Source: Aneurinibacillus terranovensis DSM 18919 (GTDB lineage Bacteria; Bacillota; Bacilli; Aneurinibacillales; Aneurinibacillaceae). Taken from it: a stretch of DNA of 64,000 nt. The position numbers and the translations under genes were made by a program. The stretch lies in assembly GCF_000430625.1 (NCBI RefSeq), contig NZ_KE387171.1:2562-66561 (forward strand). Direction: 5' to 3'. Shown in pieces: positions 9,651-38,190 of the stretch. The notes beneath the pieces are model-generated. The model was given only the letters and a program-made list of their open reading frames with translations, did no database searches and had not been told where the DNA came from. How positions within the stretch are numbered: position 1 is the stretch's first letter; every line of letters starts with the position of its first letter.

Positions 9651-9662
9651 AAAACAAAACGT

Positions 9663-9899
9663 TGATGGGGAATAGTAAGGTAAAAGCGTGCATCCAGAGA
9701 GCAAATCATTTGCTGAGAGATTTGCGGTACGATTTACCGGAACCCACCCCGGAGTGCCAGAGAACTGGCCGGGATGTTTCCTTACCTGTTATCAAAGGGA
9801 TCAAGCGGGCGTTTTTGTTCATGAGAGACGCCAATAAAGGTGGTACCGCGGAAGCAAAGCTTTTCGTCCTTTTTGTCATAAGGGATGGAAGGCTTTTTT
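9663..9899 (+). ncRNA. T-box leader (tRNA-sensing riboswitch) upstream of proB
   Basis: The leader contains the diagnostic T-box sequence AAAGGTGGTACCGCGGAAGC at 9836-9855. A 15-bp terminator stem at 9857-9895 with a T run follows, the expected antiterminator/terminator switch. Stem I is closed by aggtaa near 9680 and ttacct near 9784, with the AGAGAG element near 9692. The UGGU bulge would pair with ACCA, so the cognate tRNA should have discriminator A, as proline tRNA does. CCC in the segment ggaacccacc is the best specifier candidate. Proline tRNA sensing is inferred from that and from the downstream proBAC genes. Confidence 0.92.
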
Positions 9900-26409: not shown

Positions 26410-27378
26410 CTAAATAAATGAAAAAACGAGCAGCCCAGCCACAATGCCGAGCAAACAAAGAAACAGAAAAAAAACGGATACCAGCCGCATAATTGTAACG
26501 GTTTCCCTGATGTCTTCCATACGTATAGGCCGGGTGACATCGCCCAGCTTGGCCCGGTGCGAAGCAACTCCACGGTAGTAGTTGAGGCCGCCCAGTTGAA
26601 TGCCAAGCGCTCCTGCAACTCCGGCTTCCGTAAAACCGCTATTCGGGCTTGGATGCAATCTGGCATCCCGCAAAATCACATACAGGCAGCGCTTCCAGTC
26701 AAGGCGGAGTACCCCGCTCACTAAAACAACCATAACAGCCGACAGGCGGGCCGGAATATAATTAACGACATCGTCAAACCGCGCGGAAGCCCACCCCAGA
26801 TTGATAAACCGTTCATCTTTATAGCCAACAATCGAATCCAGCGTGTTAGCGGCACGGTACGCCATGGCCAGCGGCGCACCGCCAATCGCGGCATAGAATA
26901 GTGGAGATACAATGGCATCGACAATATTTTCGGCTACCGTTTCTATAGTCGCTCTCGCAATTTCAGGTTCGGGTAAAAATTCGGTGTCCCGCCCTACAAC
27001 CATGGAAAGCGACTTTCTCGCCTCTTCTATTTTCTCTTCTTTTAGCAGGCGGTAAATCTCAAGCCCGGCATCCGCAAGGCTTTTCGTTGCGATTGTAGTT
27101 GAAATCAGCCAGACTGCGGCCAGCCATGCCAACCACGGGTGGATGAGCATGAGCCCTTTAAGCAGCAAAGCTGTCAATGCATAGCTTCCGCCGACAAGTA
27201 AAACAGGCAGCAGGATTCCCGCCGTCTTTCGCGCCGGCTCATTTACCGATTTGCGAATGAGTTTTTCCAGAAACGAAATACACTTGCCCATATAGACAAC
27301 AGGATGCGGAATTGAACGCGGATCACCGACTATCCAATCCGTGATGAAGGCCGCAAGTAAAATAAAGAAATGAACCAT
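26410..27378 (-). CDS. cbiB: Adenosylcobinamide-phosphate synthase
   Basis: An integral membrane enzyme (also called CobD in aerobic organisms) that attaches aminopropanol phosphate to adenosylcobyric acid. The 322-residue product has about six helices. Family motifs are DWIVGDPRSIPHPVVYMGK, RDTEFLPEPEIARATIETVAENIVDAIVSPLFY and RAANTLDSIVGYKDERFINLG. RBS AAAGAGGAA lies before ATG 27378, two bases after the cbiZ stop. It is last in the riboswitch-led cobalamin operon. Confidence 0.94.
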   Translation of the reverse strand: MVHFFILLAAFITDWIVGDPRSIPHPVVYMGKCISFLEKLIRKSVNEPARKTAGILLPVLLVGGSYALTALLLKGLMLIHPWLAWLAAVWLISTTIATKSLADAGLEIYRLLKEEKIEEARKSLSMVVGRDTEFLPEPEIARATIETVAENIVDAIVSPLFYAAIGGAPLAMAYRAANTLDSIVGYKDERFINLGWASARFDDVVNYIPARLSAVMVVLVSGVLRLDWKRCLYVILRDARLHPSPNSGFTEAGVAGALGIQLGGLNYYRGVASHRAKLGDVTRPIRMEDIRETVTIMRLVSVFFLFLCLLGIVAGLLVFSFI

Positions 27379-27380
27379 TT

Positions 27381-28085
27381 TTATTCCTCTTTCTCAACGG
27401 CTGCCGCTTCGCACACCGCTTCATAGACAAGCCGGCCGATAGAATTTCCAACCGTCGTGGCGACGCCGGCGAACAGGTGGGAAGCATACTCAGGATTCTG
27501 GCTACAGCCAATCACAATGGAATCCGTCGTCGTTCCTGTCGCTATCTCACCGTGTTCGTCACGGATTCCCAGGTCTTGAAGTGCCGCCGCCTTCGCCTCG
27601 GTAGCGGTGATAATTCCGTTAACCATGGCGGCAGGAGTCAACCGTGCATCAAGTAGCACAAAAATGTTAATGGTTCCACATTGATAGGCGGAGAACGTCT
27701 GACGGAGACGCCCGGCACGCGCACTGTTACCGGTTCCGGCAGTAGCCATACAAATGATGCGAAACTGATCGCCATTTTCTTCATGAACCGACCCGCTCGT
27801 AAGGGATGCTGCCGTCTGCAATCCGACCGTTTGCGAGACAGGGTATCCCCAGCCAGTCAGATGGCCCCTCATTTGTTCCACGGGGTTTTCGGCGCTATAA
27901 TCTAACGGAACATGCCAGTTGACAAAATGAGTCGCCTGTGAAATCCCACCGCCCCAGAGTGCACTGCTTACGACTGTAAGCGGCTGCTGTGTCTGAAGCA
28001 GCAGATGGTTATCTTTATGGGTCATTGTCACTTCCGGCCAGATGAGAGAATGGTATGTGCTCATCGTACGAAATAGTTGTGTCAT
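27381..28085 (-). CDS. cbiZ: Adenosylcobinamide amidohydrolase
   Basis: CbiZ cleaves the aminopropanol side chain of adenosylcobinamide to give adenosylcobyric acid, a salvage route that lets a cell remodel scavenged corrinoids. The sequence has PLTVVSSALWGGGISQATHFVNWHV, GLQTAASLTSGS, ATAGTGNSARAG and TGTTTDSIVIG, typical of CbiZ. The longest start, ATG 28085 behind AAAGGA, overlaps pduX by 71 bp. ATG 28025 gives an 11-bp overlap and a length nearer to relatives. Its presence beside cbiB gives a complete cobinamide-to-cobyric-acid-to-cobinamide-phosphate path. Confidence 0.9.
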   Translation of the reverse strand: MTQLFRTMSTYHSLIWPEVTMTHKDNHLLLQTQQPLTVVSSALWGGGISQATHFVNWHVPLDYSAENPVEQMRGHLTGWGYPVSQTVGLQTAASLTSGSVHEENGDQFRIICMATAGTGNSARAGRLRQTFSAYQCGTINIFVLLDARLTPAAMVNGIITATEAKAAALQDLGIRDEHGEIATGTTTDSIVIGCSQNPEYASHLFAGVATTVGNSIGRLVYEAVCEAAAVEKEE

Positions 28086-28953
28086 ATGTTAGATTCCTTT
28101 CTGCCAACCTGCGAACCGTAAAACGATACGTTTTCCGCTTGACGGAAGCCATTTTTCCGGCTATGTAATCGGCCTGTTCCCGAATCGCTTCCGAAGCGGC
28201 ATCGAGAAGAATTCCAGCAAGCGTCCCGCTGTGTGCGACCACCACTCCCAGCCCCTGTACTTCTTCCGATAAAGCCACTAATTCCGAAAAAAAAGGATGG
28301 GGCAAATGGATTTGATGCATTTCGGCGCTGCGGGTCGCAATTTGTCCAATCGTTGGAGCATCGCCCTCTTTTACAGCTCTTTTTAGCCTTTTAAGCAAAC
28401 ACGCGTACTCCTTTTCCTGTTCGAATGAGTACGTTATGATCTGGTTATTAAAGGAAACCGTATCTATTTTGCCACCCCGGTCTATACCGATAATTTTCAT
28501 TGGCGGTAAATGGCCGATTCGGTCGAGCAGTCTACCCCGTCGATGATAGTACGCGACAATTTCATCGTACATGATCCCGTCTGTTGGTTCCAATCGGGCA
28601 AGCAATCGGGACAGATAAGCAGGTGGGAGCGTTACCCCGTATGCGTTTGCTACTGCGCGGCACGCGGCAAGCATATCGGCGGTACTTGTCGCAAATCCTT
28701 TCCCTTCAGGCAGCGGCTGTTCGATATCCAGCCTGCCACGAACAGGCAGACCATTCTCTTCGAGCATGCGTCTGATGATATGTCGGACTTTTGCTTTCCC
28801 CGGCGGTGTCAGTAATTCTTCTGCCAAATCGGGATAAAAAGCAGCTTTCACATAGCTCTCTATCGGAAGGGATATGAGAAAAGGAACGCGATTTACCTGC
28901 CCTTGTACCAGTTCGCCAAATGTATGACACGCCATTCCTGTTCCTATTCTCAT
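28015..28953 (-). CDS. pduX: L-threonine kinase (PduX-like GHMP kinase)
   Basis: A GHMP-family kinase of 312 residues that makes L-threonine phosphate for CobD. N-terminal GTGMACHTFGELVQGQ, the ATP loop PLPEGKGFATSTADMLAA and C-terminal VVAHSGTLAGILLD fit PduX. ATG 28953 is selected for GGGGGAG just upstream; a TTG seven codons earlier lacks one. It lies 31 bp after cobC, and its 3' end overlaps the start region of cbiZ. Together with cobD it supplies the aminopropanol phosphate used by CbiB. Confidence 0.88.
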   Translation of the reverse strand: MRIGTGMACHTFGELVQGQVNRVPFLISLPIESYVKAAFYPDLAEELLTPPGKAKVRHIIRRMLEENGLPVRGRLDIEQPLPEGKGFATSTADMLAACRAVANAYGVTLPPAYLSRLLARLEPTDGIMYDEIVAYYHRRGRLLDRIGHLPPMKIIGIDRGGKIDTVSFNNQIITYSFEQEKEYACLLKRLKRAVKEGDAPTIGQIATRSAEMHQIHLPHPFFSELVALSEEVQGLGVVVAHSGTLAGILLDAASEAIREQADYIAGKMASVKRKTYRFTVRRLAERNLTYDTTISYDEHIPFSHLAGSDNDP

Positions 28954-28984
28954 TTCCTCTCCCCCGTTGTCCAACGATTCTCTT

Positions 28985-29569
28985 TTAATCGCCCGCTACC
29001 CACCGGTTTCCATCCCATTCCACTATCAAAATTTCCCCGTGGCGCAAGCCGGAGACCTCCCAAAAAGAATAAGGTTTCCTGCTAAGCCACTGCGATTGAA
29101 ACCAGCGGATCGGCCCCCCATGGCTGACCAGAACCGCCGTTTCACCATGGGACGTCAAATCCATCACGCTTTTCAACCACAAATCAATGCGCCGGCCCAT
29201 ATCCATCAGGGATTCACCCCCCGGTGTGCACACATCGTACGGATGGTTATACCATTCCATCAGGCGGGTGCCATCCGTCTCCATCACTTCGTTGTAGGTC
29301 CGGCCATCCCATTCTCCAAAATGTAATTCGCGCAGAGCGGGCACAGGAACCGGATTCAGTCCGTGATGCTCTCCAATCATCGAGGCGGTTTGCATACACC
29401 GCGCTAAATCACTGGCATAGATACAATCAATCTTTACACCAAGAAGCCGATTAGCTGCAGCCTGTGCCTGTCTGTTTCCTTCCTCATTCAGTGGGGGATT
29501 CAAATGCCCAAGGTAACACCCCCGCACATTTCTATCCGTTTGTCCATGCCGGACCCAGATCCATCTCAT
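28985..29569 (-). CDS. cobC: Alpha-ribazole phosphatase, histidine phosphatase family
   Basis: A 194-residue phosphoglycerate-mutase-fold phosphatase. Catalytic RHG is in WVRHGQTDRN near the N terminus, with LHFGEWDGRTYNEV and VSHGGPIR completing the site. In the cobalamin pathway it removes phosphate from alpha-ribazole phosphate or adenosylcobalamin phosphate. ATG 29569 with AAGGTGG upstream overlaps the cobS stop by 4 bp, so the long in-frame extension through cobS is rejected. The operon position supports CobC over a generic phosphatase. Confidence 0.9.
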   Translation of the reverse strand: MRWIWVRHGQTDRNVRGCYLGHLNPPLNEEGNRQAQAAANRLLGVKIDCIYASDLARCMQTASMIGEHHGLNPVPVPALRELHFGEWDGRTYNEVMETDGTRLMEWYNHPYDVCTPGGESLMDMGRRIDLWLKSVMDLTSHGETAVLVSHGGPIRWFQSQWLSRKPYSFWEVSGLRHGEILIVEWDGNRWVAGD

Positions 29570-30309
29570 CCTATCCACCTTTTCATCAGCAGGAGCAGCA
29601 CGAGGGCAGCCATTTCTGTCCATTCCACGACAGCCCCGTAGCAGTCCCCTGTTAATCCGCCGAGTTTTTTTACAATCATCCGGATGAAAAAAACCGCCCC
29701 GGCAATGGTCATAATAAAAACCGCAAGACCGGATATTCGGCCAATCCAATAGACGATACATCCCGTGAACAGAAAACCCACACCCACATTGATGGCAGTA
29801 AGGCCATTGCGCAGGCCTGTTCCAATCCCTTTTTCCGTTATATACGGCCAGAACCATATAGCCATGATAAGGCAGAAGCGCGCAATAAACGGCGAAATAA
29901 TCAGCCACTCCATCCGGTGCAGGGAAACCGCTTCATAGAGGGTCGTTCCTTTCACCATAAAAAGAAGGAGGGCCGCGATGACGCCCATCGCACCGACGCG
30001 GCTGTCCTTCATAATTTCAAACACTTTTTCCTTCGGCCGATTACTTCCCAAGCCGTCGGCAAGGTCCATCCACCCGTCTACATGAAGTCCTCCGGTGATA
30101 AATACCCAGAAAGCCATCGTCAGAACGGCCGCGACCGGCAGGGGAAAAAGATAAGCCAGCAGCATCCCCGCCCCCCACAGAAGAACGCCAATCAGCAAGC
30201 CGACAAACGGGTAATAGGCCACACTTTTTTCCCAGTCCTTTGTTGAATGGCTTACATAAGGAACCGGAATGCGGGTGAGAAAAGCAATCGCATGAAGTAA
30301 TGGATTCAT
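29566..30309 (-). CDS. cobS: Adenosylcobinamide-GDP ribazoletransferase (cobalamin synthase)
   Basis: A polytopic membrane enzyme of 247 residues that joins adenosylcobinamide-GDP and alpha-ribazole phosphate. Key motifs: AIAFLTRIPVP, YYPFVGLLIG, GGLHVDGWMDLADGLGS, RVGAMGVIAA and GGLTGDCYGAVVEWTEM. ATG 30309 follows AGGGGAAAAGC and overlaps the cobU stop by 4 bp. It is part of the tightly coupled cobD-cobU-cobS-cobC run. Confidence 0.95.
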   Translation of the reverse strand: MNPLLHAIAFLTRIPVPYVSHSTKDWEKSVAYYPFVGLLIGVLLWGAGMLLAYLFPLPVAAVLTMAFWVFITGGLHVDGWMDLADGLGSNRPKEKVFEIMKDSRVGAMGVIAALLLFMVKGTTLYEAVSLHRMEWLIISPFIARFCLIMAIWFWPYITEKGIGTGLRNGLTAINVGVGFLFTGCIVYWIGRISGLAVFIMTIAGAVFFIRMIVKKLGGLTGDCYGAVVEWTEMAALVLLLLMKRWIG

Positions 30310-30851
30310 CGCTTTTCCCCTTTGATTTGCCATGGTATACCCGAGATTACGGCGTACACTTCGTCAGCGGCACGGGCGATTTGCTGATTGGCCTCTCCCA
30401 AAACATCTTGGAACCACCGGCCAAGGCGGGACATCGCAACGCCCCCGAGACCTGCTTCGGTGGATACGAGAATGACGGTACCTGCGAATGTTTGAATCAA
30501 CGAGATCCAATCGGCTGTATCATTAAGAATGCGCTTCGTGACACCTGAATCACGTATGCTGTCTTCCGGCACCGTTAACAACGCATTGCTAATCCACGTG
30601 CTCAGGCAATCAATTAAAATGACATCGAATCCATCGTACACTTCTGCCGAACCAAGGCTATCGGAGCTTTCAAGCAATCCCCAGCTAACCGGGCGCCGTT
30701 TTTGATGATATTCAATTCGCTGCTCCATCTCAGAATCCGTACATACACCCGTTGCAACATAGAGTACGGAATCGGATGTTTCCCGGGCGATTCGTTCGGC
30801 AAATGCACTTTTCCCCGAACGTACGCCCCCTGTGACCAGAATAAGACTCAT
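30306..30851 (-). CDS. cobU: Adenosylcobinamide kinase / adenosylcobinamide-phosphate guanylyltransferase
   Basis: A bifunctional P-loop enzyme of 181 residues. Walker A is LVTGGVRSGKSAFAER, followed by VLYVATGVCTDSEMEQRIEYHQKRRP with the guanylylated-histidine helix, and LIDCLSTWISN. ATG 30851 has AGGAGGG seven bases upstream and overlaps the cobD stop by 4 bp. It activates cobinamide for the CobS reaction. Confidence 0.95.
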   Translation of the reverse strand: MSLILVTGGVRSGKSAFAERIARETSDSVLYVATGVCTDSEMEQRIEYHQKRRPVSWGLLESSDSLGSAEVYDGFDVILIDCLSTWISNALLTVPEDSIRDSGVTKRILNDTADWISLIQTFAGTVILVSTEAGLGGVAMSRLGRWFQDVLGEANQQIARAADEVYAVISGIPWQIKGEKR

Positions 30852-31960
30852 CGGTCTCCCTCCTCTGTCCATTCATCTATCACGCCGGACAGAACCGAAA
30901 GAAAGCGGTTATTCTCCTCACGACTACGTACGGCAATGCGGAAATCATGTTCGGTAAGGCCCGGGTACATGCTGCAATTCCGGATTAATATTCCTTTCGC
31001 ACCCATCCTTTGCTGCAACTCATCCGCTCTCCTGTCATAGGGTAAACGAACCAGGAGAAAATTGGCTTTGCCAGGCCATACCTTCCAGCCGAATCGTCCA
31101 CAGAGGTTCTCAAATAAATAAGTACGTTCCCGCGCAATCAGTTCACGTGATCTCTCTTCATAATCGACGGCTGTAAGAGCGGCTTCCCCCGCAGCCAGTG
31201 CCAGGCTGTTTACACTCCAGGTCACCTGTCTGGACTTCATCTTCTTGATGGCCGTAGGGTTTGCTATGCTAAATCCAAGGCGTAAGCCGGGAATCGCATA
31301 AAATTTGGTCATTGAACGAATTAGAATGACTCTTGAAAACATATGCAGGGATGGCAGAAGCGTCGACTGGTCACCGGGAGAAAGAAAATCAAGAAACGCT
31401 TCGTCGATAACAAGCCACGTGTCCGTTTCTTCCGCCCATTCGGCCAGTACCTCCAGGTCACCGCGGGTATACATTAATCCGGTCGGATTATTAGGGTGGC
31501 CAATGAAAACCAAATCGCACTCCCTGAACAATGGATAAATCCCGTCTAGAGGCGGTAGCGAACCTGCCGAATGGGAGACGCTGCAGCGACTCACACTCGC
31601 CCCGAATTGTTCAGCAAGATGCCTGTATTCGGAAAAGCACGGGTCGATAACTCCCACCTGGCGGGGAGCGAACGCAAGAATGGTAAGAGCGATGCATTCT
31701 GCAGCCCCGTTGCCGACCAGCAGCATCTCTTCGTCAATCGCATATTTTCGGGCAAGCTGCCTCACAAAAGAACGGTGGGCCGGATCCGGATAATGAATAA
31801 TTCCTTTCATTTCTCTATGTAACCGTTCGACAACTTCCACAGGGGGACCAAGAGGATTAATATTGGCACTAAAGTCGAACCACTCGTCCTTTCTTACACC
31901 AAAAAGGTCGGAAGCGGTCGTCAAATCGCCACCATGCCCAAATTTTTCAACCGTACTCAT
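30848..31960 (-). CDS. cobD: Threonine-phosphate decarboxylase
   Basis: A PLP enzyme of 370 residues converting L-threonine phosphate to (R)-1-amino-2-propanol phosphate. Aminotransferase-like motifs NINPLGPP, FIGHPNNPTGLMYTR, VIDEAFLDF and the PLP lysine in RSMTKFYAIPGLRLGF are present. It resembles HisC, but its place between cobA and cobU decides the call. Its ATG shares one base with the cobA stop. Confidence 0.92.
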   Translation of the reverse strand: MSTVEKFGHGGDLTTASDLFGVRKDEWFDFSANINPLGPPVEVVERLHREMKGIIHYPDPAHRSFVRQLARKYAIDEEMLLVGNGAAECIALTILAFAPRQVGVIDPCFSEYRHLAEQFGASVSRCSVSHSAGSLPPLDGIYPLFRECDLVFIGHPNNPTGLMYTRGDLEVLAEWAEETDTWLVIDEAFLDFLSPGDQSTLLPSLHMFSRVILIRSMTKFYAIPGLRLGFSIANPTAIKKMKSRQVTWSVNSLALAAGEAALTAVDYEERSRELIARERTYLFENLCGRFGWKVWPGKANFLLVRLPYDRRADELQQRMGAKGILIRNCSMYPGLTEHDFRIAVRSREENNRFLSVLSGVIDEWTEEGDR

Positions 31961-32538
31961 CAGAATTCTATCCCCAGTACAGCCGGTATGCCTTCATCAT
32001 AGTAATGCTTAACCGGTTTCATCTCCGTCACAAGGTCCGCAATCTCAATGATTTCTTGTTTGGCACTGCGTCCGGTAAGGACAAGATGCATACCATGCGG
32101 ACGGCTGCGGATGAGGTCAAGCACTTCCGCAAGCGGCAATACATCATCAATGGGAAATTTCTCAATGGCGAGGGCATTGTTAATTTCATCGAGAATGACT
32201 ACGTCATAATCGCCATGTAGCACTTTTTCCTTTGTAAACTGCCAGGCGCTTTGCAGGGCCACCCTGTGCTCTTCCGGTGTTTTAAGCCAGGTAAAGCCGA
32301 TACCTTTCTGGCAGATTTCAATTCCAAGTTTATCGAAGACAATTTTCTCACCATAGGTCCGTTCGGGTGATTTAATGAATTGTATAAACAAGACCCTTTT
32401 TCCGCGCCCCGCTGCCCGTACAGCCAGGCCAAGTGCGGCCGTTGTTTTCCCTTTTCCATCTCCAGTGTATACAAGGGTAAGTCCACGATTTTTATCCGGT
32501 TGATTTGTATCCCGTTGATTTGTATCCGTTTGGCCCAT
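31960..32538 (-). CDS. cobA: Cob(I)alamin adenosyltransferase, CobA/CobO type
   Basis: A 192-residue RecA-fold enzyme that adds the adenosyl ligand to corrinoids. Walker A is VYTGDGKGKTTAALGLAVRAAGRGKRV; IDDVLPLAEV, VVILDEINNALA and LVLTGRSAKQEI follow. ATG 32538 is chosen; the upstream in-frame stretch overlaps the previous gene out of frame and is not coding. The N terminus carries the duplicated DTNQR/DTNQP segment made by a 15-bp tandem repeat, so its length may vary between strains. Confidence 0.93.
   Translation of the reverse strand: MGQTDTNQRDTNQPDKNRGLTLVYTGDGKGKTTAALGLAVRAAGRGKRVLFIQFIKSPERTYGEKIVFDKLGIEICQKGIGFTWLKTPEEHRVALQSAWQFTKEKVLHGDYDVVILDEINNALAIEKFPIDDVLPLAEVLDLIRSRPHGMHLVLTGRSAKQEIIEIADLVTEMKPVKHYYDEGIPAVLGIEF
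32496..32525 (-). repeat. 15-bp tandem repeat in the 5' end of cobA
   Basis: Two units, ccggttgatttgtat (32496-32510) and cccgttgatttgtat (32511-32525), with a partial third. They encode DTNQR-DTNQP on the minus strand. The unit length is a multiple of three, so copy changes keep the frame. Confidence 0.8.
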
Positions 32539-32593
32539 ATTCGTTGGTTCCCCCACTTCCTCTATCTGTGTTGTCTCCAGCCAAGTGCTATTT

Positions 32594-33253
32594 TTATTGG
32601 TCCGATTCTTTTCCGGTGACTTCAATGATGAGCTGGTTAAACAGTTCTCCAAGCCGCTTATCATCCTGTTCTTTGATACATGTAAAGAAGTCGTTATCCA
32701 GCAGACGTTTGAAAATGGCACGCCGCTGCGATTCCTCCGCAACCGTGGCAAGTACAGTTGAGCGGCTCCGTGCAAGAAAGTCAATATAGTTTCCATACAC
32801 CTCACCATACTGTTCCTTGAGCTCCCCGCTGATTTTACGCGCCAGCCCCGGGCTTGCCCCACCGGTAGAAACGGAAATCGTAAGCTGTCCGCTCCTGAAA
32901 TGAGAAGGAACCGTGAATGTGCTTAAATCCGGCCGGTCCGCTATATTAATCCATTGTCCGGGAGCGAGCGCCTCATATACGGACCGGTTCACCTCCGGAT
33001 GGTTCGTCGCTGCAAACACGAGCACCGCCCGTTCGATGTCATCCGGTGAGAAAACTTTCTGCTTCCAGACGATTTGCCGCTGTTTAGACCAATGTATGAT
33101 TTCACTGGCTGCCTCAGGACTGACGACCGTGATTCTGTCGGCTCCTGACGCCAGCAATGACTTAATTTTTCGTACGGCAACCGTTCCGCCGCCAATTACC
33201 ACACACAATCGCCCTGTCAGCGTAAGCATAAGTGGATATGAAGGCTTACCCAT
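32594..33253 (-). CDS. Precorrin-2 dehydrogenase / sirohydrochlorin ferrochelatase-like (Met8p/SirC type)
   Basis: A 219-residue NAD-dependent dehydrogenase with Rossmann motif VVIGGGTVAVRKIKSLLASGA, NIADRPDLSTFTVPSHFRSGQLTISVSTGGASPGLARKI and a short helical C terminus. Relatives oxidise precorrin-2 to sirohydrochlorin, feeding siroheme or cobalamin. ATG 33253 with GGGGAGGGG is the true start. The longer frame runs through the leader terminator. It is the first gene after the cobalamin riboswitch, although no other ring-forming gene is present here. Confidence 0.9.
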   Translation of the reverse strand: MGKPSYPLMLTLTGRLCVVIGGGTVAVRKIKSLLASGADRITVVSPEAASEIIHWSKQRQIVWKQKVFSPDDIERAVLVFAATNHPEVNRSVYEALAPGQWINIADRPDLSTFTVPSHFRSGQLTISVSTGGASPGLARKISGELKEQYGEVYGNYIDFLARSRSTVLATVAEESQRRAIFKRLLDNDFFTCIKEQDDKRLGELFNQLIIEVTGKESDQ

Positions 33254-33275
33254 GAGCACCCCTCCCCTATCATAA

Positions 33276-33314
33276 GAAAAAAGAAAACGCCTCTTCCCCG
33301 TTGAGAAGAGACGT
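33276..33314 (-). terminator. Riboswitch-associated terminator before the SirC-type gene
   Basis: The minus strand reads ACGTCTCTTC-TCAACGG-GGAAGAGGCGT then TTTTC and TTTTTT. It sits between the cobalamin aptamer and the first gene of the operon, as an expression platform would. Confidence 0.85.
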
Positions 33315-33394
33315 CCTGTTTCTACGTTAATTGAAAACATTTATACGTAAGTAAGAGAACACTCCCTATATCCGCGTAGGGGGTCTTATGTTTG

Positions 33395-33517
33395 CACAGC
33401 AGGCAGGTATTCTGGCTTGAGATACTTGTCTCTTACAGTGGCGGGACCGCAACGGACTTACACCGTTCTTCCCCTGCAGGAATGGGCATTCAATGGACAT
33501 TCATTCGACTGCTGTGG
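33395..33517 (-). promoter_or_regulatory. Cobalamin riboswitch upstream of the cobalamin operon
   Basis: On the minus strand the core GGTGTAAGTCCG, GCGGTCCCGCCACTGTAAG and GCCAGAATACCTGCCTGCTG match the B12-box elements. The outer stem CACAGCAG at the 5' end pairs with CTGCTGTG at the 3' end. It is followed by a terminator and then the nine-gene operon. Adenosylcobalamin binding should shut the operon down. Confidence 0.93.
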
Positions 33518-33591
33518 TGTATTCGGTTAGTAAATCTGTAGATAATGATATGTTATCTGCTCGTAATTGTCCACTATTCTCCGCAATCTAA

Positions 33592-34665
33592 CTACAGTCC
33601 TAAATCATCAAACGTCGCCATCCCATACAGCATACCAAGTGAGGCATCCAACAACGGATAGAGGAGAACCGCTCCCGATCCTTCACCCAGCCGCATTCCT
33701 AAATGCAAGCACGGGCGGAGCCCGATATGAGAAAGGGCGGCGAGGTGAGCCGGTTCTTCCGATAAGTGAGAAGCGAAAAGATAGTCTTTCACTTGCGGGC
33801 ATATCTCGTATGCTGCGAGAGCAGCCGCACCTGCGATAACCCCGTCGACCACCACAGCCATTTTGTTAGCGGCAGCGCCAATGACAACTCCGGTAAGCCC
33901 GGCGATTTCCAGCCCGCCTACTCTCGCCAGCACATCCATTCCATCCCATTTCGTACGCCAATCGTCGGTTATCCCGTTTACCTGTAAGCACCGGTCAATA
34001 ATTTGTACCTTTGCGCGCCGTTTTTCTTCGTTAAGACCTGTCCCTTTCCCTGTCAGTTCTTCCGTTGGACGGCCCGTTACGGCTGCGATGATAGCAGCGC
34101 TCGGCGTCGTATTTCCGATCCCCATATCTCCTAAGGCGACCGCCCTGTGCCCCCGCGCCGCAAGTTCATCCACAATCCGAATGCCTGCCTGTATGGCTGC
34201 CGCTGCTTCCTCCCGGCTCATAGCGGGCCCGTGCGCCATATTATTCGTTCCACTTTTGACTTTCGCCGCTCGCACACCGTCCGGCAGTTCGCTAAGCTTG
34301 CTGCCCACGTCCACAACAACGACGTCCGCCTTCATCAGGCGGGAAAAAACATTAATCGCCGCTCCGCCCCGTGAGAAATTCCCCATCATTAATCCAGTCA
34401 CTTCAGAAGGGAAAGCGCTGACTCCCTCCTCGACCACCCCGTGGTCCCCGCACATGACAACAACGGCACGTTTATCAAGCACAGGCGTCTCCGTTCCCTG
34501 AATACCTGCCAGGCGAATGACCATCTCTTCCAGCACACCCAAACTTCCTGGCGGCTTGGTCAAATTGTTCACGCGCTCCCCAACTTTCTTCATACAATCG
34601 TCATCCAATGGCTTGATACGTGCAAAGATTTCTTCCAATGTACGGCTTTGACTGATTTGGCTCAT
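33592..34665 (-). CDS. cobT: Nicotinate-nucleotide--dimethylbenzimidazole phosphoribosyltransferase
   Basis: Makes alpha-ribazole phosphate, activating the lower ligand. The 357-residue product has TKPPGSLGVLEEMVIRLAG, VMCGDHGVVEEGVSAFP, GDMGIGNTTPSAAI and a C-terminal RLGEGSGAVLLYPLLDAS, with the catalytic Glu region near the end. RBS GGAGGAG precedes ATG 34665. It has its own cobalamin riboswitch and ends 75 bp before the second one. Confidence 0.96.
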   Translation of the reverse strand: MSQISQSRTLEEIFARIKPLDDDCMKKVGERVNNLTKPPGSLGVLEEMVIRLAGIQGTETPVLDKRAVVVMCGDHGVVEEGVSAFPSEVTGLMMGNFSRGGAAINVFSRLMKADVVVVDVGSKLSELPDGVRAAKVKSGTNNMAHGPAMSREEAAAAIQAGIRIVDELAARGHRAVALGDMGIGNTTPSAAIIAAVTGRPTEELTGKGTGLNEEKRRAKVQIIDRCLQVNGITDDWRTKWDGMDVLARVGGLEIAGLTGVVIGAAANKMAVVVDGVIAGAAALAAYEICPQVKDYLFASHLSEEPAHLAALSHIGLRPCLHLGMRLGEGSGAVLLYPLLDASLGMLYGMATFDDLGL

Positions 34666-34721
34666 TTTTTCTCCTCCGATAAATATAATGGTTGTAAAAT
34701 GAACGACGACGCTAAGGATGC

Positions 34722-34753
34722 AAAAAAGTCCAGATCAAATAAGACCTGGACTT
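34722..34753 (-). terminator. Riboswitch-associated terminator before cobT
   Basis: The minus strand reads AAGTCCAGGTC-TTATTT-GATCTGGACTT followed by TTTT. It lies between the aptamer and the cobT start and forms the likely expression platform. Confidence 0.88.
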
Positions 34754-34805
34754 GCCATTACCAGAATATAAGCGCATTTCTTGTCCTCGCAAAAAATGTC
34801 TCCCA

Positions 34806-34957
34806 CAATAGGCAGGTCTCCTGGCTGTCGGATCGTTGCCTTCGGCTGACAGCCTTCCCGGTACGGTTCCAGTGACTGCCAGTAGCTCCCCGATTACAGT
34901 GGCGGGCCCGCGTGTTTTCTTCCCTATTCTCCCCCCTAAGGGGGCACCTATTGCGCC
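34806..34957 (-). promoter_or_regulatory. Cobalamin riboswitch upstream of cobT
   Basis: On the minus strand the sequence contains GGGCCCGCCACTGTAATC and AGCCAGGAGACCTGCCTATTG, the classic B12-box and 3' elements. Its outer stem CAATAGG pairs with CCTATTG. A long GC-rich hairpin (CCCCCTTAGGGGG) lies near the 5' end. It is larger than the riboswitch at 33395 and differs from it in the peripheral stems. Confidence 0.93.
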
Positions 34958-34998
34958 GTATATCATTTTTATTAGCGTACAATGTCCGCGTTATTTTT

Positions 34999-37395: not shown

Positions 37396-38064
37396 CTATA
37401 TATCTTTGTTAATGTATTCAATTCCCCACTTATTTTCAAAAAGGAGATGTTTCAATTCATGACGTCTTTCCCAGTCATGAATTTCAAGCAAAGGACGTTC
37501 GGGATAATGATCTGTATAACCTATGGAAATTAAAGCGACAGGATCAATATGTAGAGGGATGTTAAGAATTCTTCTTACATCAGATTTCTTATAAAAACTC
37601 ACCCATCCCATAGCCAATCCTTCAGCATAGGCAGCTAACCACATATTTTGTATCGCACAACTTACCGACATGATATCCGTTTCAGGAATGGAATTTCTGC
37701 CCAGTACATGATCCCCGCCTCTGGAAGGATCGCATGTAACACAAATGGTAATCGGGGCTTCTTTAATGCCTGCTATTTTTAAATCTAAGAATGTAAGTTC
37801 ACGATCCGTGTTTTCGTAATGTATGGCTAAAGCCCGGCGCTCTTTGTCTACGATGGCAGCCAGCTGGTTTTTTATTTCTTGAGCCTGTACAATAATAAAG
37901 TTCCACGGTTGCATAAAGCCTACAGACGGAGCGTGATGGGCTGCCTCCAACAGTTTATATAATTTCGTATGAGGAATAGGTGTATTAAGAAATGCTCGGA
38001 TATCTCTTCGATTAAATATAGCTTTGTATACCCCGTTTTTTTCTTCTTCAGTTAAGCGTTCCAT
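37396..38064 (-). CDS. bluB: 5,6-dimethylbenzimidazole synthase
   Basis: BluB fragments reduced FMN with oxygen to form the lower ligand of vitamin B12. The 222-residue nitroreductase-fold protein has FNRRDIRAFLNTPIP, LLEAAHHAPSVGFMQPWNFIIV, GRNSIPETDIMSVSCAIQNMWLAAYAEGLAMGWVSFY and IGYTDHYPERPLLE, all typical of BluB rather than other nitroreductases. ATG 38064 has GGAGGGG upstream. It is transcribed alone, 3 kb from cobT, and no cobalamin riboswitch was found before it. It should supply dimethylbenzimidazole to CobT. Confidence 0.92.
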   Translation of the reverse strand: MERLTEEEKNGVYKAIFNRRDIRAFLNTPIPHTKLYKLLEAAHHAPSVGFMQPWNFIIVQAQEIKNQLAAIVDKERRALAIHYENTDRELTFLDLKIAGIKEAPITICVTCDPSRGGDHVLGRNSIPETDIMSVSCAIQNMWLAAYAEGLAMGWVSFYKKSDVRRILNIPLHIDPVALISIGYTDHYPERPLLEIHDWERRHELKHLLFENKWGIEYINKDI

Positions 38065-38190
38065 CACTACATCCCCTCCCATAAAAGTGTATAAAAATAA
38101 AAAACCTCTGCCAAGAATATACCATAACAGCGAGTATGTCGAGAAAGGACTTTTGCCTAGACCCGGCTTATAACTATTCCACCACCAAAT

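Follow-up and report, generated by a model that had tools for sequence, protein, structure and literature searches.

Two unlike corrinoid riboswitches in one gene cluster of Aneurinibacillus terranovensis: a P4-less cobT leader that may be an ON switch and a conventional-looking switch ahead of sirC

Why should two corrinoid riboswitches stand 1.3 kb apart in one gene cluster, and do they respond alike? The question is raised by a 64,000-nucleotide stretch of Aneurinibacillus terranovensis DSM 18919 (contig NZ_KE387171.1; hereafter the window), in which one switch precedes cobT and the other the nine-gene sirC–cbiB operon. An initial annotation had placed the aptamers at 34806-34957 and 33395-33517, which fits the two Rfam matches (Table 1); both exceed the RF00174 gathering cut-off of 31.5 bits, and the whole genome holds five RF00174 matches at E<=0.1. 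Its statement that peripheral stems and terminators differ was also borne out: P4/L4 is missing from the cobT switch, whose P6 extension is long, and present in the sirC switch, whose P6 hairpin measures 14 nt; both are followed by a terminator-like site of their own (34753-34726 and 33317-33284, respectively, minus strand). As for function, our analysis of the sequences leads us to favor, with confidence about evenly balanced, the view that the cobT leader is a corrinoid riboswitch from a lineage guarding lower-ligand genes and is built to switch its gene ON.

The first unusual feature of the cobT switch is its aptamer. P4/L4 belongs to the four-way junction of RF00174; it is present in the sirC switch and absent from the cobT switch, which we therefore filed as a variant of RF00174 and not as a standard member (neither RF01482 nor RF01689 matches it at E<=1). 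In the Rfam alignment, the hairpin cccGGUGcaAauCCggg is mostly gapped, the window sequence reading GGGAAG-AAAACAC-GCGGGCCCGCC. The missing hairpin is P4/L4 because L5 is the UCCCG/GCCCG loop; P5 was rejected as a candidate, since L5 sits in the GGUCCCGCC loop (Procknow et al. 2023, PMC10653944). An assembly error was likewise rejected as the cause of the gap, which a second genome of the genus shares (L008, L035). The P4-less form precedes cobT in all 11 genomes of the family that were searched, one of which also has it before bluB, and rocD lies just upstream in 10 of them (in the eleventh, rocD is absent or beyond the end of the stretch). In an alignment of 13 sequences, 20 of the 43 predicted pairs show two-sided changes. 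In its usual form, L4 is a T-loop that docks on L6, and a P4-less aptamer raises the question of how the B12 pocket works without the arm thought to brace it.

Searches at the order and class levels (15 and 398 genomes) with R1, a model built from P4-less cobT aptamers, recovered P4-less or stub-P4 aptamers before cobT in other families of Bacilli (L186, L188, L191-L195, L200, L202), as well as before bluB (L206), before a CblS-like kinase gene (L198) and with no adjacent gene assigned (L197). We grouped as lower-ligand genes cobT, bluB, ThiC-like/BzaB-like genes and ECF-type CblT-like genes, named from tblastn with the window proteins together with Pfam and NCBIfam; the names CblT and CblS are our assumption, added to an ECF match and weak ThiL matches, and for one ThiC-like protein, a 330-residue piece, the best NCBIfam match is BzaB, below cut-off. 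Among the Bacilli, a T-loop P4 was missing from 22 of 24 lower-ligand switches and from 2 of 42 others, once L243, which precedes the second cobT of genome G026 and keeps P4, had been moved out of the others (originally 22/23 vs 2/43). The two exceptions among the others (L024, L241) seem to be failures of the parsing or the pattern; L167 was misparsed in this count and is P4-less by another reading. In a pattern scan of genome contigs, which yields no prevalence, at least 120 matches were obtained, and by our reading L167 (Brevibacillus dissolubilis) was the sole P4-less one among the matches listed, the others being chance or canonical.

The second feature concerns the terminator. After the B12 box, the cobT leader contains hairpin A, hairpin B and the terminator, in that order, and the 3' strand of hairpin B forms part of the 5' arm of the terminator, as in the one activating corrinoid switch reported. 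We scored this overlap in 35 of 39 leaders of lower-ligand genes and in 1 of the 41 others (80 leaders, Fisher 5.7e-17), or in 25/29 vs 1/41 when a single cobT representative of the family was kept. Sixteen of the 41 others have a Pfam match (CbiM, NicO, FecCD, periplasmic binding protein, ribonucleotide reductase, DUF4430), the rest being unassigned or named by eye. The count excluded the second switches of L003 and L193, the leaders L197 and L224 (no gene assigned), leaders in which no terminator was found, and L195, L198, L221 and L227, for want of parsing. The sirC switch of the window is the dropped second row of L003 (cut by the locus end) and, with a gap of 79 and a score of 5.8, would fail the gap rule given below. 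Pairing of upstream strands was also stronger with the terminator arm of their own leader than with arms exchanged between leaders (mean 6.18 vs 4.67 over 28 leaders, deduplicated yet related; permutation p 0.0002).

The loops point in the same direction. The UGGC loop of hairpin B is found in 10 of the 11 family leaders and is complementary to the L5 loop GCCCG, as needed for a kissing interaction, but the loop of hairpin A is complementary to L5 too. UGGC (anywhere within 115 nt, in related leaders) accompanies an L5 starting with GCCC in 19 of 22 leaders, as against 7 of the 68 whose L5 is UCCCG. Leaders with hairpin B only occur before cobT (L186, L188, L200, L202) and bluB (L187, L206, L238); in all three bluB leaders, L5 is UGUC and the loop has GACA, L5 and L13 having changed together.

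The arrangement has a described counterpart. The cobT leader of Alkalihalobacillus halodurans is the first activating corrinoid switch reported, with about eightfold induction by cobinamide; it has L5 GCCCG, L13 UGGC and a P13 3' strand shared with the terminator, as supported by mutations (PMC10653944). The window leader resembles it in its gene, its L5 GCCCG, its UGGC loop and the hairpin 3' strand within the terminator 5' arm. Taking the published pairs 168-181 and 181-200, the terminator pair spacing is equal (19) and the hairpin spacing is 12 in the window vs 13 by our count; L5 and UGGC are about 150 nt apart in the window (own count) vs 118. Unlike the A. halodurans leader, that of the window has an extra hairpin with a canonical-type L13 loop. 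Both class RF00174 and the ON mechanism are already known; in the open-licence literature, where P4 is not searchable as a term and absence is weak evidence, we found no published description of P4-less corrinoid aptamers, of a class of ON switches for lower-ligand genes or of a double L13.

Under the ON reading, where we infer the sign, the ligand and the role of hairpin A, hairpin B would be both the L13 hairpin and the antiterminator. Without corrinoid, the terminator (34726-34753) would form and cobT would be off; with corrinoid bound, L5 would kiss the UGGC loop, and the kissed hairpin B would hold the terminator 5' arm, allowing RNA polymerase to continue. If the analogy with A. halodurans extends to the ligand, an incomplete corrinoid (cobinamide, for example) may be the inducer, and cobT would then rise when a ring precursor awaits its lower ligand; hairpin A is supposed to be a spacer or a competitor. 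The sirC–cbiB operon, for its part, would be under a conventional-looking OFF switch, apparently recruited from the genome's own family of cbi-operon switches. The recurrence of the A. halodurans layout before genes that make or salvage lower ligands, both in Bacilli and elsewhere in the phylum, turns a one-off into a testable class whose logic is that the waiting ring calls for its lower ligand, and in the window a possible ON switch and a possible OFF switch can be compared directly within a single gene cluster.

Several points speak against this reading. The overlap rule (score >=5.8, gap <65, loop <=13) was fixed after the leaders had been seen, retrieval favored overlap-type leaders, and the window leader scores 5.8, exactly the threshold. 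For the pairing upstream of the terminator, shuffling gave p<0.05 in only 6 of 31 lower-ligand leaders and p 0.143 for the window, where the overlap is weak on its own; the case rests on the comparison across genes and on the arm-swap test, the per-leader shuffles being weak. Hairpin B is bulged or mismatched in 8 of the 11 family leaders and, in isolation, the window hairpin has an energy of -4.0 kcal/mol vs -16.6 for the terminator. As for the link between P4 loss and lower-ligand genes, retrieval with R1 is biased to P4-less cobT forms, and the phylum-search set shows no tie to gene type, a T-loop P4 being missing from 5 of its 16 lower-ligand switches and from 5 of the 7 others. Because R1 favors P4-less forms, a scan anchored on cobT was added, covering 60 sources (23 of 30 loci and 37 of 40 fetched stretches). 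It revealed a switch in 9 of the 60, which is no prevalence because the stretches were hand-picked and mostly omit genomes with a known switch. By eye, three of these switches are ON-type (L303, L305, L329) and six OFF-type (L265, L266, L273, L290, L292, L322), so the ON layout does not hold for every cobT, and seven of the nine keep a T-loop P4. Loss of P4 is not equivalent to ON: L303 and L329 keep P4, and L265, whose P4 lacks the T-loop, nevertheless looks OFF.

The case for an OFF switch comes from hairpin A, also present in the family of the window, and from complementarity between its B12 box and terminator arm. In an OFF switch, which we regard as possible though rather doubtful, hairpin A would be the real P13 and kiss L5 in the presence of ligand; without ligand, the B12 box (AGACCUG) would pair as an antiterminator with CAGGUCU, that is, the terminator 5' arm and the first loop base. 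The loop of hairpin A is CGnGGA or CGCGGU in all 11 family leaders, around which stems of differing sequence still pair (native pairing was the best of 720 permutations among six representatives, with the G007 stem one base out of register and 2 of its 5 pairs counted). The B12-box complement of 6-7 nt occurs in 11/11 family leaders vs 1/71 others, and the terminator 5' arm is invariant in the family while both its candidate hairpin partners vary. However, as the arm is identical in all 11, the complement counts as a single inherited event (shuffle p 0.007-0.04), nearly all other leaders lack it, even those with similar aptamers, and an OFF switch leaves the UGGC loop and the G-initial L5 unexplained.

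Could both hairpins be used? We consider it unlikely that one L5 picks between two L13 loops, a complete cobamide directing it to hairpin A (OFF) and an incomplete corrinoid to hairpin B (ON). Both loops are conserved in the family, and other lineages also have double-hairpin leaders (e.g. L198, L211, L228), but hairpin A may be a plain spacer and we know of no precedent for such a choice. A two-way cobT switch, its L5 having two conserved, mutually exclusive kissing partners, within a widespread feed-forward class for lower-ligand supply (cobT, bluB, bza, alpha-ribazole salvage), is improbable to the same degree. Last, that the P4-less aptamer is degenerate and has lost corrinoid sensing, as the absence of a normally present hairpin might suggest, is highly improbable given its retention with covariation in 11/11 family genomes and its occurrence before the same gene in other families of Bacilli.

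Some leaders outside the window deserve mention in their own right. By eye, the P4-less cobT leaders L191, L192 and L167 have hairpins A and B followed by a downstream terminator that does not overlap hairpin B. Genes for NCS1/CytX-like permeases, candidate importers of lower ligands, lie downstream of the P4-stub switches L197 (NCBIfam match) and L198 (by eye; after the CblS-like kinase). L224 is a corrinoid-type leader with a hairpin-B-like stretch before an open reading frame (ORF) that appears UbiX-like by eye.

The sirC switch looks like a conventional OFF type, with P4/L4, L5 UCCCG and a P13 set apart from a distant terminator. Its class scores (RF00174 45.2; RF01482 44.3, cut-off 50; RF01689 36.5, cut-off 36.5) make it class-II-like, not cleanly assigned. 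It aligns with another switch of the same genome, C12, over the aptamer core, P13 (CCUACGnGGAUAUAGG) and the terminator (GGACGUCUCUUC), minus about 50 nt of the P6 arm; C12 precedes an ORF that we take from its sequence to be CbiH-like, about 4 kb from CbiC. The sirC switch is thus probably a P6-arm-deleted relative of the genome's cbi-operon switch. It shares P4/L4, L5 UCCCG, a P13 with CGCGGA and a separate terminator with the conventional repressing RF00174 switches of the P. megaterium metE type (PMC10653944), from which it differs by the deleted P6 extension and an RF01689 score at the cut-off. Class IIb is described as having no P8-P12 extension, GGAA at J3/4 and UCU at J6/3 (PMC11260477): by reading, the sirC switch lacks the extension and has GGAA, and by eye its J6/3 (AAGCCAGAAUACCUGCC) has no UCU. 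In lacking the extension and having GGAA before P4 it is like M. tuberculosis ppe2 (PMC11260477), also without UCU, and B. subtilis btuF (PMC9600662); unlike these short-P6 switches, it aligns with a long-arm switch of its own genome.

When was this second switch acquired? Six relatives (G001, G002, G004, G005, G006, G008) carry cobT together with the sirC...cbiB cluster, although G001 gave no match to cobO or bluB. A motif scan and the RF00174 match positions revealed no second switch at sirC in them, the sole switch found preceding cobT; in G001, which belongs to the genus of the window, sirC lies about 120 nt downstream of cobT. In G009, no sirC...cbiB cluster lies within the stretch examined. 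Since the relatives show only the cobT-side switch, the most likely course is gain of the second in the window lineage, which would have uncoupled the operon from cobT, the alternative being loss in the relatives.

These results also bear on the rest of the initial annotation. Its nine-gene operon behind the second aptamer stands; that the first controls cobT alone is not demonstrated, for in the interval from the cobT stop (33592) to the second aptamer (33527) the scan shows no terminator-like site on the minus strand, and the cobT transcript may therefore read into the operon. Its term salvage is too narrow: the genome encodes CbiC (267 bits), so the late steps can also serve de novo synthesis. 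The anatomy (P4/L4 loss and a terminator-overlapping hairpin vs a P6 deletion and a conventional layout) supports a functional difference between the two switches. Of the differing sensitivity or ligand range that the annotation proposed, the latter is plausible; the stronger inference, drawn from relatives, is that the regulatory sign may differ.

Eight of the nine operon genes are backed at family level by Pfam or NCBIfam, the aminotransferase and histidine-phosphatase matches being general and the CbiS and PRK06718 matches below their cut-offs. The kinase, whose sole NCBIfam match is a weak shikimate-kinase one, is presumably PduX. The sirC ORF as listed starts (33340) before the terminator; judged by eye, its true start is likely near 33254.

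Table 1. Positions of the riboswitch elements and genes in the window
Feature	Position	Strand	Remarks
cobT corrinoid aptamer, P4/L4-less	34794..34966	-	RF00174 88.9 bits, E 1.2e-20; aligned with 12 relatives
8-nt linker GAAAACAC replacing P4/L4 hairpin	34912..34919	-	gap in covariance-model alignment
P5/L5, loop GCCCG	34902..34911	-	L5 letters match A. halodurans cobT (PMC10653944)
B12 box, cobT leader	34811..34826	-	6 nt Watson-Crick complementary to terminator 5' arm (7 counting first loop base)
Hairpin A, CAUUUUUUG(CGAGGA)CAAGAAAUG, canonical-type L13 loop	34775..34798	-	stem letters vary among relatives but pair
Hairpin B, UCUGG(UAAUGGCAAGU)CCAGG, loop with UGGC	34745..34765	-	3' strand belongs to terminator 5' arm
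Intrinsic terminator of cobT leader with U tract	34721..34753	-	
cobT	33592..34665	-	TIGR03160 412.8 bits, cut-off 319.3
Promoter-like site (10/12) ahead of second switch	33545..33573	-	scan near chance: 3 found, shuffles give 1.9
sirC-operon corrinoid aptamer, very short P6	33385..33527	-	RF00174 45.2 bits, E 4.1e-8; RF01689 36.5
P4/L4 of sirC switch, present	33451..33468	-	
P5/L5 of sirC switch, UCCCG	33441..33450	-	
Truncated P6 hairpin GAGA(CAAGUA)UCUC	33419..33432	-	
B12 box of sirC switch	33402..33417	-	
P13/L13 of sirC switch (CGCGGAUA)	33362..33383	-	separate from terminator
Terminator of sirC switch	33276..33317	-	
Nine-gene operon: sirC-type dehydrogenase, cobO, cobD-type aminotransferase, cobU, cobS, cobC, PduX-type kinase (presumed), cbiZ, cbiB	26410..33256	-	

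The bluB gene of the window (37396-38082, minus strand; TIGR02476, 228.5 bits) has no Rfam cobalamin match upstream. In G009, G284 and G063, a switch detected by RF00174 or R1 precedes bluB, and in five relatives bluB lies within the sirC operon. The window also contains a T-box leader at 9653-9874 on the plus strand (106.9 bits).

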